A DNA stretch of 64,000 nt, from the IMG/VR virus record IMGVR_UViG_3300050120_000152, positions 62,001-126,000 of that record; one strand, given 5' to 3'. Numbering within the stretch: position 1 is the first letter of the stretch; each line of letters starts with the position of its first letter. This document shows, piece by piece, positions 27,602 to 57,981 of this stretch. The notes under the pieces were generated by a model. The model was given only the letters and a program-made list of their open reading frames with translations. It was not told where the DNA came from and made no database searches. The translations under genes and the position numbers were made by a program. The stretch comes from a virus.

Positions 27602-28150
27602 GTGATATGGGTCAAAGTTGAAAGGGATCGTTTAGGTAATCCCTGAAGCCTACTCAGTAAGGGTTAATAACCAAGGTTTCCTAGCCGCTTTGGTGATACA
27701 ACTGAGATATCACAATAATTAAGTTTATATGAATTATTTTTCATATAAATAGAAATATCCAAAGTAATTTGGATTATGATTGTAAAGATATCGTAAGGTA
27801 TCTGAGATTGTGAGTAATAAAGGGCCGCGACACGAGGGTTCGACTCCCTCCATCTCCACCACATATGTTCTTTACTGTTGCAACAGTAACGCTAGACGCC
27901 TATCAACTCCCTTCGAAAGGAGCCATGTGTAGGATGAGACAAGCCCAATGATGGCGCGGAAGAACATAGCTGATGGGGATGCAATGGCTTCGACCGGGGT
28001 TAGAATAGACAAACAGACAATCCGTTTAGAATGGTACGTTATACCTTAAAAAACTATAAATGCTTCTAACGATGCGATTTATTCAATGGAATACAGCTTA
28101 GCTGCTTGAAATTGATGGGGTTTAATCCACCTTATTACCCAACAAGATTA
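27602..28150 (+). ncRNA. ssrA: Circularly permuted (two-piece) tmRNA
   Basis: The tRNA-like 3' half precedes the 5' half. The upstream acceptor piece ends with a T arm (27834-27850, loop TTCGACT), acceptor strand CATCTCC (27851-27857), A, and encoded CCA (27859-27861). The downstream coding piece begins GGGGATG (27975-27981), which pairs with CATCTCC over 7 bp (one G-U), then a tmRNA-like AATGGCTTCGACC. The resume codon GCT at 28062 opens a 15-codon tag ending LAA-stop. The intervening 27862-27974 is held together by a 9-bp stem (27864-27872 with 27960-27968) and should be excised. Several hairpins in 27610-27800 could be the pseudoknot region. Permuted tmRNA is known in alphaproteobacteria, some betaproteobacteria and cyanobacteria. 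Exact mature ends in the loop are not determined. Confidence 0.93.
28062..28109 (+). other. tmRNA proteolysis-tag reading frame
   Basis: Codons 28062-28106 plus TGA at 28107-28109 encode ASNDAIYSMEYSLAA. The AxND start and the LAA end match known tmRNA tags, and LAA is the ClpX recognition end. The tag is longer than the 8-11 residues common in bacteria. Confidence 0.9.
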
Positions 28151-50524: not shown

Positions 50525-50971
50525 ATGACTACGCTTAAAGCACAAATTATGGCAGAACGTATTACGGCATTGAAGGCCAAGGATTCTGCGCGCACACAAA
50601 TTGTAAGCTCTATTCTTGCTGCTATCAAACAGGTTGAAGTAGATACTCGTGTTGAACAGGATGATACTGGTGTGTTGACTGTACTTAATCGAATGGTCAA
50701 ACAGCGCTTAGATTCCATCTCACAATTTAATGCTGCTGGCCGTACAGATTTGTCAGAAATTGAAGAGAAAGAATTAGTCGTTATTAAAGAGTTCATGCCA
50801 CAACAAGCTTCCGAATCTGAAATTGATACTATTATTTCTGATGCATTGGCCTCAGTTGGTTCAACGTCTGTTAAGGATATGGGAAAGATCATGGCTATCG
50901 TTAAGCCTCAGTTACTTGGCAAAGCTGACATGGCTAAGGTCTCCCAATCTATTAAGAGTAAGCTTTCATGA
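50525..50971 (+). CDS. YqeY/GatB-like protein
   Basis: 148 aa, the full size of YqeY. The helical segments LKAQIMAERITALKAKDSART, RTQIVSSILAAIKQVEVD and IIKEFMPQQASESEID-type region, and SVKDMGKIMAIVKPQLLGKAD at the end, match the family. YqeY resembles the tRNA-binding tail domain of the GatB amidotransferase subunit. Its function is not settled; it fits the tRNA theme of this region. Confidence 0.85.
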   Translation: MTTLKAQIMAERITALKAKDSARTQIVSSILAAIKQVEVDTRVEQDDTGVLTVLNRMVKQRLDSISQFNAAGRTDLSEIEEKELVVIKEFMPQQASESEIDTIISDALASVGSTSVKDMGKIMAIVKPQLLGKADMAKVSQSIKSKLS

Positions 50972-52140: not shown

Positions 52141-52761
52141 ATGCTTTCCAACATTGAAAAAACCCGTATTGCACTCTATCATTGGATGCTTGGAAAAGGC
52201 TTTTTCATTGCTTCCGAAGCCATGGCTTATGCTGAAAACACACATGTAGGTTTCCGTAAGGATGGTGTCACGCCAGCTTTTGCTCACCAGATTTGGATTG
52301 CTAATCGTATCCGTACATTCAATCTTCCCGATGATGTAATGGAACTCTGCCTCATTTTGGCGTTCTTACATGATACTGCTGAAGATTATGATGTAGGTTT
52401 TGAAGAATTTAATGCAAAGTATGGTGCTGTTGTTGCTGATGGTGTTCGTCGTTTGACGAAAAAGCATCGCGGGATGGTTATCCCAAAAGAAACTTATTTC
52501 AGTGATTTGGCACTCATGGCGGCTGCAGCTATCGTAAAAGGTGTAGATCGTTTGCATAACCTTTCTACGATGATTGGAGTGTTCAATCCTGCGAAACAGA
52601 TGGATTATATTGCAGAAACTATGTTGTTCCATTTGCCTATGCTTAAGAAAGCTCGAAAAAGCTTCCCTATGTATTGGCAGGCTTTTGAAAGCATCAAACA
52701 GGCTATCAATGATAAAATGGAAATGGTCAATATGATTCTTAAACTTGAGGCAAAATCATGA
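52141..52761 (+). CDS. HD-domain hydrolase, SpoT/small-alarmone-hydrolase-like
   Basis: 206 aa. AHQIWIANRI (first His), LILAFLHDTAEDYD (HD plus ED, about residue 77) and AIVKGVDRLHNLSTM (catalytic Asp, about 140) follow the order of (p)ppGpp hydrolases (HxxxxR ... HDxxED ... D.xxN). It lacks the synthetase domain, like MESH1-type hydrolases. Removal of alarmone during infection is plausible; other HD phosphohydrolase activity cannot be excluded. Confidence 0.75.
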   Translation: MLSNIEKTRIALYHWMLGKGFFIASEAMAYAENTHVGFRKDGVTPAFAHQIWIANRIRTFNLPDDVMELCLILAFLHDTAEDYDVGFEEFNAKYGAVVADGVRRLTKKHRGMVIPKETYFSDLALMAAAAIVKGVDRLHNLSTMIGVFNPAKQMDYIAETMLFHLPMLKKARKSFPMYWQAFESIKQAINDKMEMVNMILKLEAKS

Positions 52762-54666: not shown

Positions 54667-54694
54667 TTGACAAATTAATTACATCATGTAATAT
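54667..54694 (+). promoter_or_regulatory. Promoter upstream of the 54752 gene and the rRNA-like RNA
   Basis: TTGACA at 54667-54672, a 16-bp spacer and TAATAT at 54689-54694. It could serve both the 54752 gene and the RNA at 55014. Confidence 0.6.
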
Positions 54695-54751: not shown

Positions 54752-54994
54752 ATGACAGACTCAACCGTAGAAAAGAAGCAACGTGGGGCAAAGCGCAATC
54801 CCAATAGCGCAATCAGCAAAACATATGAGATTATCAAAAATCTCCCGGTCGCTGAACGTACTCGCTCTAATGTGTTAAGCCTTATTGGGGTTGGCACAAC
54901 CATCAATTTGCAAGAAAAGGTTGCTAGTGTATATTATTACAACACAATGAAGAAGATTCGTAATGAAGCTGCAACGTCAACTGTAACCGCATAA
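54752..54994 (+). CDS. Small basic hypothetical protein
   Basis: 80 aa from MTDSTVEKKQRGAKRNP, start chosen after the ribosome site aggaaaa; a longer frame to 54695 lies in the promoter. Basic N-terminus and a helical RTRSNVLSLIGVGTTINLQEK segment suggest nucleic-acid or RNA binding. It ends about 20 bp before the rRNA-like RNA, so it may be its partner; this is speculation. Confidence 0.6.
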   Translation: MTDSTVEKKQRGAKRNPNSAISKTYEIIKNLPVAERTRSNVLSLIGVGTTINLQEKVASVYYYNTMKKIRNEAATSTVTA

Positions 54995-55013
54995 AAGTCT
55001 TGAGAGGGCGGAT

Positions 55014-55266
55014 GAAGGTCGTAGGCTTAGAAGCAGCCATCATAAGAGTGAGACAAAGGCCAAATGCTATCATGTAGATAAGTCGAAGGGTATCGTTAAC
55101 TTATCGAAATTTCAAAAACTGCCAATATCCATAATACGCTATTATGGTTTAGAGCAATGGGATGGCTTCCCTGAGAAAAAGACGCATTGGACACCACTTG
55201 GTAAAGTAATGATGCACCCCAGAAATGGTAAGGCAGATTTTCTCTTTAGCGTAATAGCACACCTTC
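55014..55266 (+). ncRNA. 23S rRNA GTPase-associated-centre-like RNA, split by about 199 nt
   Basis: 55021-55043 reads GTAGGCTTAGAAGCAGCCATCAT, broken here for readability: GTAGGCTTAGAAGC then AGCC then ATCAT. From GG of that segment, 20 nt match the E. coli 23S helix-43 loop region (about positions 1060-1080). The segment CGTAATAGCACAC (from 55250) matches the helix-44 hairpin (AGCGUAAUAGC core). GAAGGT (55014-55019) pairs with ACCTTC (55261-55266), reproducing the closing stem of the domain, and GTG (55048) can pair with CAC (55258). Between G55050 and C55250 lie 199 nt that 23S rRNA lacks; they contain hairpins (for example CCATAATA-CGC-TATTATGG at about 55129 and a CCA-GAAA-TGG) and an open frame without a start. 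The element would fold like the L11- and EF-G-binding site. Whether the insert is spliced, an intron relic or a stable loop is unknown. Confidence 0.75.
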
Positions 55267-55292
55267 AACAATCTTATGATTAAATAAATCTA

Positions 55293-55331: not shown

Positions 55332-55403
55332 GGCCTATTCGGCGAATCCGAACTGAAGTCTTCGAAACTTTATGGAAGTGTTTGACTCACTTATGGGCCT
55401 CCA
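55332..55403 (+). tRNA. tRNA-like gene, UCG anticodon (Arg), atypical D arm
   Basis: Acceptor GGCCTAT/ATGGGCC, anticodon stem GAAGT/ACTTT with loop CTTCGAA giving TCG (55362-55364), T arm 55376-55392 (loop TTTGACT), discriminator T, CCA at 55401-55403. The D region (TCGG-CGAAT-CCGA) forms a tight hairpin with a 5-nt loop and no GG pair, so D/T-loop contacts of a normal tRNA are missing. Only 69 nt without CCA. Confidence 0.65.
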
Positions 55404-55411
55404 AATTATAT

Positions 55412-55492
55412 GGCCTCGTAACGAGCAAGGTTTCTACCCTTGACAATCGTAATTGGATGTAAATGGGGGTTCGAATCCCTCCGGGGCCACCA
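55412..55492 (+). tRNA. tRNA-like gene, UCU anticodon (Arg), D arm apparently missing
   Basis: Acceptor GGCCTCG/CGGGGCC, T arm 55465-55481 (loop TTCGAAT), CCA 55490-55492. The only good anticodon arm is CAAGG-TTTCTAC-CCTTG (55426-55442) giving TCT at 55433-55435; that leaves just 7 nt for the D region and a 22-nt variable region with CAAT-CGTA-ATTG. This resembles D-armless mitochondrial tRNA-Ser more than a normal tRNA. Anticodon assignment is tentative. Confidence 0.6.
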
Positions 55493-57831: not shown

Positions 57832-57981
57832 GGGACGTTAGCTCAATTGGTTAGAGCGATGACCTCTCCGGGAGAGTTTTAAGACTCTCCAATCTAACAG
57901 ATTTTTATAGTCTGTTACTTTGGGTAGTTTTCCCTAAAGATAAGTCATGGGTTGCTGGTTCAAGTCCAGCACGTCCCACCA
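57832..57981 (+). tRNA. tRNA interrupted in the anticodon loop, probable tRNA-Ile2/Met (CAU)
   Basis: Acceptor GGGACGT/ACGTCCC, D stem GCTC/GAGC, T arm GCTGG/CCAGC (57954-57970), discriminator A, CCA 57979-57981. The anticodon stem ATGAC (57859-57863) pairs with GTCAT (57944-57948), but the loop is 80 nt instead of 7. Removing 57867-57939 leaves CTCATAA, identical to the loop of the neighbouring tRNA (anticodon CAT). The T arm also matches that of E. coli tRNA-Ile2 as I remember it. Other cuts would give GAT or CTT. See the intron entry. Confidence 0.85.
57867..57939 (+). other. Predicted 73-nt intervening sequence in the tRNA
   Basis: Three hairpins follow each other: GGAGAG/CTCTCC (about 57871-57890), AACAGA/TCTGTT (about 57896-57916) and CTTTGGG/CCTAAAG (about 57918-57939). 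Ends depend on the true anticodon. It is far shorter than any known self-splicing group I intron (about 200 nt or more), and no group I core motif is seen. Confidence 0.65.

Follow-up and report, generated by a model that had tools for sequence, protein, structure and literature searches.

A phage RNA family homologous to the GTPase-associated centre of 23S rRNA, possibly capturing L11

Comparative analysis showed a conserved family of phage RNAs that is homologous to the GTPase-associated centre (GAC) of 23S rRNA, with selection on the secondary structure and on the tertiary pair 1082-1086. One member lies in the window, the whole analyzed stretch of 64,000 nt that comprises bases 62001-126000 of a 340,344-base IMG/VR virus record. 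At 55013-55267 a stand-alone RNA is predicted, the shell of which is the GAC, which consists of helices 43 and 44 (E. coli 23S positions 1051-1108). Judged from sequence comparison, many large phages carry such an RNA, mostly unannotated and usually among tRNA genes. The RNA probably captures host L11 or another partner of that site.

The GAC shell of the window RNA

A preliminary description of this DNA had pointed out two matches to 23S rRNA in native order, and both were confirmed. The sequence GGCTTAGAAGCAGCCATCAT at 55024-55043 is identical in all 20 bases to E. coli 23S 1062-1081, and its 19-base core occurs a single time in the window and in 0 of 100 dinucleotide shuffles. On the other side, GCGTAATAGC at 55249-55258 is identical to the helix-44 hairpin, to which CGTAATAGC at 55250-55258 belongs. 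The proposed closing stem GAAGGT/ACCTTC also turned out to be real: 55014-55019 pairs with 55261-55266, extended by T55013-A55267, the bases differ from those of 23S rRNA, and the outer stem covaries across the family. The claim that GTG/CAC restores helix 44 had to be refined. Helix 44 does re-form, but its pairs are G1089-C1102, U1090-A1101, G55249-C1100, and C1092-G1099, and the insert branches off as a separate stem. The insert site corresponds to 23S 1090/1091, and the insert has its own 4-bp closing stem. The features are compiled in Table 1.

Table 1. Features of the GAC RNA and its surroundings in the window
Feature	Position	Strand	Remark
Sigma70-like promoter, 10 of 12	54667..54694	+	Consensus match only; candidate for transcription of the small ORF and of the GAC RNA
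80-aa basic ORF upstream of the GAC RNA	54752..54994	+	No Pfam family; possibly same transcript
Outer stem, 5' strand TGAAGG	55013..55018	+	Pairs with 55262-55267; G55018 = 23S G1055
Helix 43 hairpin GGCTTAGAAGCAGCC (23S 1062-1076)	55024..55038	+	Identical to E. coli 23S; inside covariance-model match
GAC junction strand (23S 1077-1091), ATCATAAGAGTG variant	55039..55050	+	3 nt below family consensus length
Insert closing stem, 5' strand GAGA	55050..55053	+	Pairs with 55241-55244; covaries in family
199-nt insert in helix 44, including linker UUUA 55245-55248	55051..55249	+	Insert site and UUUR linker family-conserved
Type-A module hairpin ATGC-ACCCCAGAAATGGTAAG-GCAG	55212..55236	+	Recurrent insert hairpin with covarying flanks
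Insert closing stem, 3' strand TCTC	55241..55244	+	Covariation in family
Helix 44 tip G-C-GUAAUA-G-C (23S 1091-1100)	55249..55258	+	Pairs invariant in family
Helix 44 and outer stem, 3' strand (23S 1101-1109)	55259..55267	+	Family covariation and covariance-model match
tRNA-Arg(TCT), downstream, same strand	55412..55489	+	tRNA proximity common in family

A covariance model was built from 36 other phage copies, with the window copy excluded. In the 64-kb window it yielded one match, which includes both flanks (55006-55274, 56.5 bits, E 2.2e-14), and the whole 340-kb record likewise contained one match. Applied to E. coli 23S rRNA, the model picked 1043-1116 (52.4 bits, E 1.1e-12). LSU models, which had been suggested for recognizing the element, did not do so: Rfam gave no match to it at E<=1 and no LSU rRNA match in the window. 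The silence of Rfam on the element is expected because the short domain is broken by a long insert.

Minimum-free-energy folding of the single window sequence was no better than that of shuffles (z 0.15), so the evidence for the window fold is comparative, not thermodynamic. A protein-coding insert was also considered, as a 97-codon open frame (54990-55280) crosses the element; it was rejected because the frame has no start codon and no Pfam match and because the inserts elsewhere are unrelated.

The window copy is a short variant of the family. Compared with the family sequence CATCNTTTAARGAGTG (the 1080-1086 stretch), its CATCATAAGAGTG lacks 3 nt, and the copy is also 1 nt shorter than the family within 1056-1059, with a weakened 1057-1059 helix. 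Because of these deletions, the tertiary pair 1082-1086 is absent. An exact scan of viral contigs for the short variant found none. The same short form is present at locus L213, where the 1059-1079 pair is swapped from G-C to C-G, and this suggests that the window variant is also maintained.

Members, covariation, and neighbourhood of the family

The search of phage genomes for covarying copies, as proposed in the preliminary description, revealed a large family. With blastn of phage records, the same pieces were found in Aeromonas phage 4_4572, Pseudomonas pf16, and UNO-G1W1, and also in the rak2-like jumbo phages GAP32, CBB, BF, XbC2, and Kaldavass, mostly unannotated. Further members are the Pseudomonas phages Astolliot and Milchi, XacN1, Vibrio phage 2.275.O, and Acinetobacter phage ME3 (confirmed by covariance model). 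In total, more than 10 isolated phages were matched by the model, including pf16, GAP32, XacN1, and ME3. Scanning of viral contigs with CYTTDGCGTARNAGCNCAC gave at least 120 matches, two narrower motif scans gave 47 matches each, and a helix-43 scan gave 50. A similar motif was present in only 13 stretches of 11.3 million bacterial/archaeal contigs. Helix 43 was found within 460 nt of the motif at 125 of the 133 distinct sites that had enough upstream sequence, compared to 3.4% after dinucleotide shuffling. The covariance model matched 174 of 200 motif-collected loci, a count that includes the model's own 36 sequences and leaves aside locus L200. L200 is true 23S rRNA by Rfam and was left out of the family, as were Paenibacillus phage Pd_22F, which reads as ordinary 23S rRNA, and several short "phage" records matching helix 43. 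With the exception of L200, Rfam reported no LSU rRNA in the related loci scanned.

Covariation was quantified for 89 sequences, one per insert cluster. The top covarying pairs were 1058-1080, insert +1:-7, 1051-1108, 1052-1107, the tertiary pair 1082-1086, 1054-1105, 1053-1106, and insert +2:-8, followed by pairs that extend the outer stem outward, by 1057-1081, and by 1091:-6. The scores of these pairs were 0.24-0.99, whereas the maximum in independent column shuffles was 0.14. On the 36-sequence alignment, 89.9% of the cells of the named structure were paired, and its covariation score was 0.473, compared to 0.129 when shuffled and at most 0.148 when slid. The outer stem covaries family-wide at 1047-1054/1105-1112 and has a median of 8 pairs versus 2 with the 5' flank shuffled. 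The results for the tertiary pairs were not uniform. The 1082-1086 pair is kept as U-A, C-G, or A-U in 92% of the 89 representatives, and U1060-A1088 is unvaried (36/36 and 111/111), leaving no variation for covariation testing. The 1061-1070 pair is not retained (50% of cells). The covariation of known GAC pairs, of the outer stem, and of the insert stem shows that the fold is under selection, and the earlier view that it is maintained and not random debris holds for many phages.

Conservation was counted in 111 copies without core indels. Invariant in all 111 were G1055, G1059, U1060, G1063, G1071, A1084, A1085, G1087, A1088, G1089, C1092, A1098, G1099, C1100, and C1104, to be read with the fact that the main search patterns fixed most of helix 44 and left 1055-1061 and 1077-1091 free. 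A1067 is relaxed: it is A in 88 of the 111 phage copies (not kept in 21%) versus all 99 native matches found in 46 bacterial genomes. A1070 is likewise relaxed in the 111 phage copies.

The insertion follows a common plan. G1091 opens the insert stem and pairs with a C six bases before C1092; after the stem comes a UUUR linker, and G-C1092-GUARNA-G-C1100 then rebuilds the tip of helix 44. The native GAC is thus preserved, with the insert added to it as a third branch. Between clusters the inserts are almost unrelated, and this lack of conservation suggests that the insert may be a scaffold or have a host-specific second function. A recurrent type-A hairpin, NNNC-ACCCCRNAANNGGTAAG-GNNN, is located 12-14 nt before the insert end in 28 members from 17 insert clusters, with covarying flanks. 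A sarcin-ricin loop in the inserts was considered and rejected. The L162 insert shares CTAGTACGAGAGG with 23S rRNA, but this sequence is complementary to the upstream CGTACTAG and probably is a helix arm, and the longest matches between inserts and 23S rRNA are no longer than those of shuffles.

Several loci have a particular architecture. L090 (3842-4340, minus strand) contains two diverged GAC RNAs in tandem; the first, which has diverged further than the aligned copies, has C1092-G1099 changed to U-A. In L147 (1931-2367, plus strand) a permuted tmRNA is followed directly by a divergent GAC-like 3' half (23.8 bits). At L151 (8345-8572) and L144 (1034-1213) helix 43 seems to be swapped for another hairpin, with the helix-44 side retained. 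L017, L091, L120, L088, L075, and others have a second insertion, often hairpin-like, in 1078-1082 after helix 43.

Concerning the neighbourhood, 78 of the 143 copies have a tRNA at a distance of up to 500 nt, compared to 37% for random positions in the same loci. In all 78 the tRNA is on the same strand, and the median distance is 44 nt where a tRNA is present. A complete tmRNA above the family cut-off was found in 11 of 50 related records. The window phage has a permuted tmRNA at 27806-28109 (plus strand; Rfam RF04321, 88.9 bits). Between its GAC RNA and the tRNA-Arg, a 68-nt cloverleaf is predicted (55332-55399, plus strand), which was called a tRNA by neither ARAGORN nor Rfam. Further downstream, 57832-57978 (plus strand) is a tRNA by Rfam (54.7 bits), not called by ARAGORN, with an insertion of about 70-90 nt in the anticodon-loop region that resembles three hairpins. 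A YqeY-like protein is encoded at 50525-50971 (plus strand; Pfam PF09424, E 2e-46).

Two neighbouring proteins had been thought to suit a link to the stringent response. The possible (p)ppGpp hydrolase, encoded at 52141-52761 (plus strand), 3 kb from the GAC RNA, was borne out as small alarmone hydrolase-like: it carries an LHDTAED motif, has a Pfam HD_4 match (E 7e-6) just under the curated cut-off, and matches RelA/SpoT structures down to E 1e-8. At E<=0.001, a RelA/SpoT-type hydrolase domain was present in only 13 of 50 related records, with 3 of these above the curated cut-off, a frequency that has no matched control set. For the small basic protein at 54752, nothing connects it with the GAC RNA except its upstream position. 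An L11 gene was found in none of the 50 related records, so an L11 partner would be that of the host.

Possible functions

The C-terminal domain of L11 binds H43/H44 tightly (PMC3592554), and an isolated 58-nt GAC RNA binds L11 in Mg2+ (PMC10161774; PMC8373061). RelA is not supported by ribosomes lacking L11, and loss of L11 abolishes RelA activation (PMC4974054). A1067 is a tRNA-elbow contact and the key site of thiostrepton resistance (PMC5829649). The invariant core together with the relaxed A1067 therefore favours recognition by L11 or via the tertiary core over contact with a factor or tRNA elbow. The conserved fold that L11 grips, the relaxed A1067, and the L11 requirement of RelA favour a decoy that captures L11, and the alarmone hydrolase-like gene near the window GAC RNA was counted for this reading as well.

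We hypothesized that the GAC RNA would be transcribed together with the phage tRNAs and would bind host L11. With lower confidence, the decoy might lower the amount of free or exchangeable L11 and leave some ribosomes without L11; RelA would then be activated less strongly, and factor-dependent steps would change. The variable insert may contribute to stability or serve a second partner. The chances are about even that the phage RNA is a stand-alone non-coding RNA that folds like the 23S GAC and binds host L11 in trans. The wider proposal, that the widespread family is a free-standing copy of this ribosomal centre which would capture L11 and so sever the link of the ribosome to RelA and to normal factor control during infection, is offered tentatively. 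Titration of L11 and interference with the stringent response, both put forward in the preliminary description, are plausible candidate effects; titration would need high RNA levels because ribosome-bound L11 is abundant. Further points argue against an L11 decoy. The window copy is without the 1082-1086 pair and has the weakened 1057-1059 helix, a few relatives (L151, L144) appear to replace helix 43, the 1061-1070 pair is not retained, and the insert gets no clear role in the decoy model.

Other functions were considered. GAC RNAs sit in tRNA clusters, often with tmRNA, and such clusters are translation-rescue kits; the GAC shell is conserved while the remainder diverges. Both would suit a decoy that draws off a host defence or stress enzyme recognizing or cleaving the ribosomal GAC, by analogy to phage tRNAs that replace or evade tRNA-cleaving defences. 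We regard this as unlikely, as we know of no GAC-specific defence nuclease and the relaxation of A1067 and A1070 would spoil a target recognized by its loop. It is also unlikely that the RNA serves as the scaffold of a phage RNP or as a regulatory element, with L11 or a phage protein bound to the GAC shell to control processing of the tRNA transcript or to display the insert. The constant insert site with its covarying closing stem, the type-A hairpin at a fixed distance, and the same-strand tRNA adjacency agree with such a role, but there is no constant neighbour gene, and some copies are located away from tRNAs.

Quite improbable is a platform that directly binds translational GTPases, RelA, or tRNA elbows as a ribosome-in-pieces competitor. 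Both loops, that of helix 43 and that of helix 44, are present, and binding of EF-G to oligonucleotides of the thiostrepton domain has been reported (Munishkin and Wool 1997, as cited in PMC5829649), but the tRNA-elbow base A1067 is invariant in native matches and not in the phage copies, and a sarcin-ricin loop partner is lacking.

That the element is non-functional debris of captured 23S rRNA, as the shortness of the window copy and its shuffle-like folding could indicate, is very far-fetched: for the family, debris is already refuted by extensive compensatory change across more than 100 diverged phage sequences, and the motif is nearly absent from bacterial contigs. A GAC exon interrupted by an intron or another self-splicing insert, the spliced arrangement considered earlier, agrees with the native helix 44 that would result if the insert were removed, but it has hardly any probability left, as the inserts are about 30 to 370 nt long, range down to simple hairpins, share no catalytic core, and gave no Rfam intron family match in the window or in 15 scanned loci.

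Relation to known RNAs

Genes for tRNAs, tmRNA, and ribosomal proteins are known from phages, but we know of no viral RNA that is built on a functional rRNA domain. No description of a phage GAC RNA was found in the open-licence PMC literature, and the RNA matched nothing in Rfam. If the proposal is true, no earlier viral mimic of an rRNA domain would be known. Both as a small RNA fold and in its complex with L11, the GAC is among the best studied, and RelA activation is gated by L11; the L11 idea is therefore directly testable, in vitro as well as with ordinary laboratory pairs of phage and host. In addition, the family offers more than 100 diverged GAC sequences as a natural library, and its recurrent helix-44 insertion site tolerates almost any domain.

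The species 1 and 2 RNAs of T4 (rnaC, rnaD) are also stable RNAs in a phage tRNA cluster, for which we know of no function. They were rejected as family members, as the covariance model had no match in the T4 tRNA region (L219). GOLLD and ROOL are ornate, large structured RNAs associated with phages, and they resemble the GAC RNA in often being near phage tRNAs. To our knowledge they contain no GAC domain, and Rfam found no match to them in the window or the scanned related loci. Like phage tRNAs and tmRNA, the GAC RNA is a host-like translation RNA of large phages and is found in the same clusters; in contrast to them, it is a piece of rRNA and not a complete translation RNA.

The closest relative is the 23S GAC itself, with which the phage RNA shares the sequence, the secondary structure, the tertiary pair 1082-1086, and the geometry of the outer stem, in agreement with the reciprocal covariance-model match. 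In contrast to the 23S GAC, the phage RNA is predicted to be stand-alone, without helix 42 or other parts of 23S rRNA, and has the helix-44 insert with its UUUR linker. Two positions set it apart as well: A1067 is relaxed, and position 1101 is A in 109 of 111 phage copies, whereas it is U in 72 of 72 native matches.
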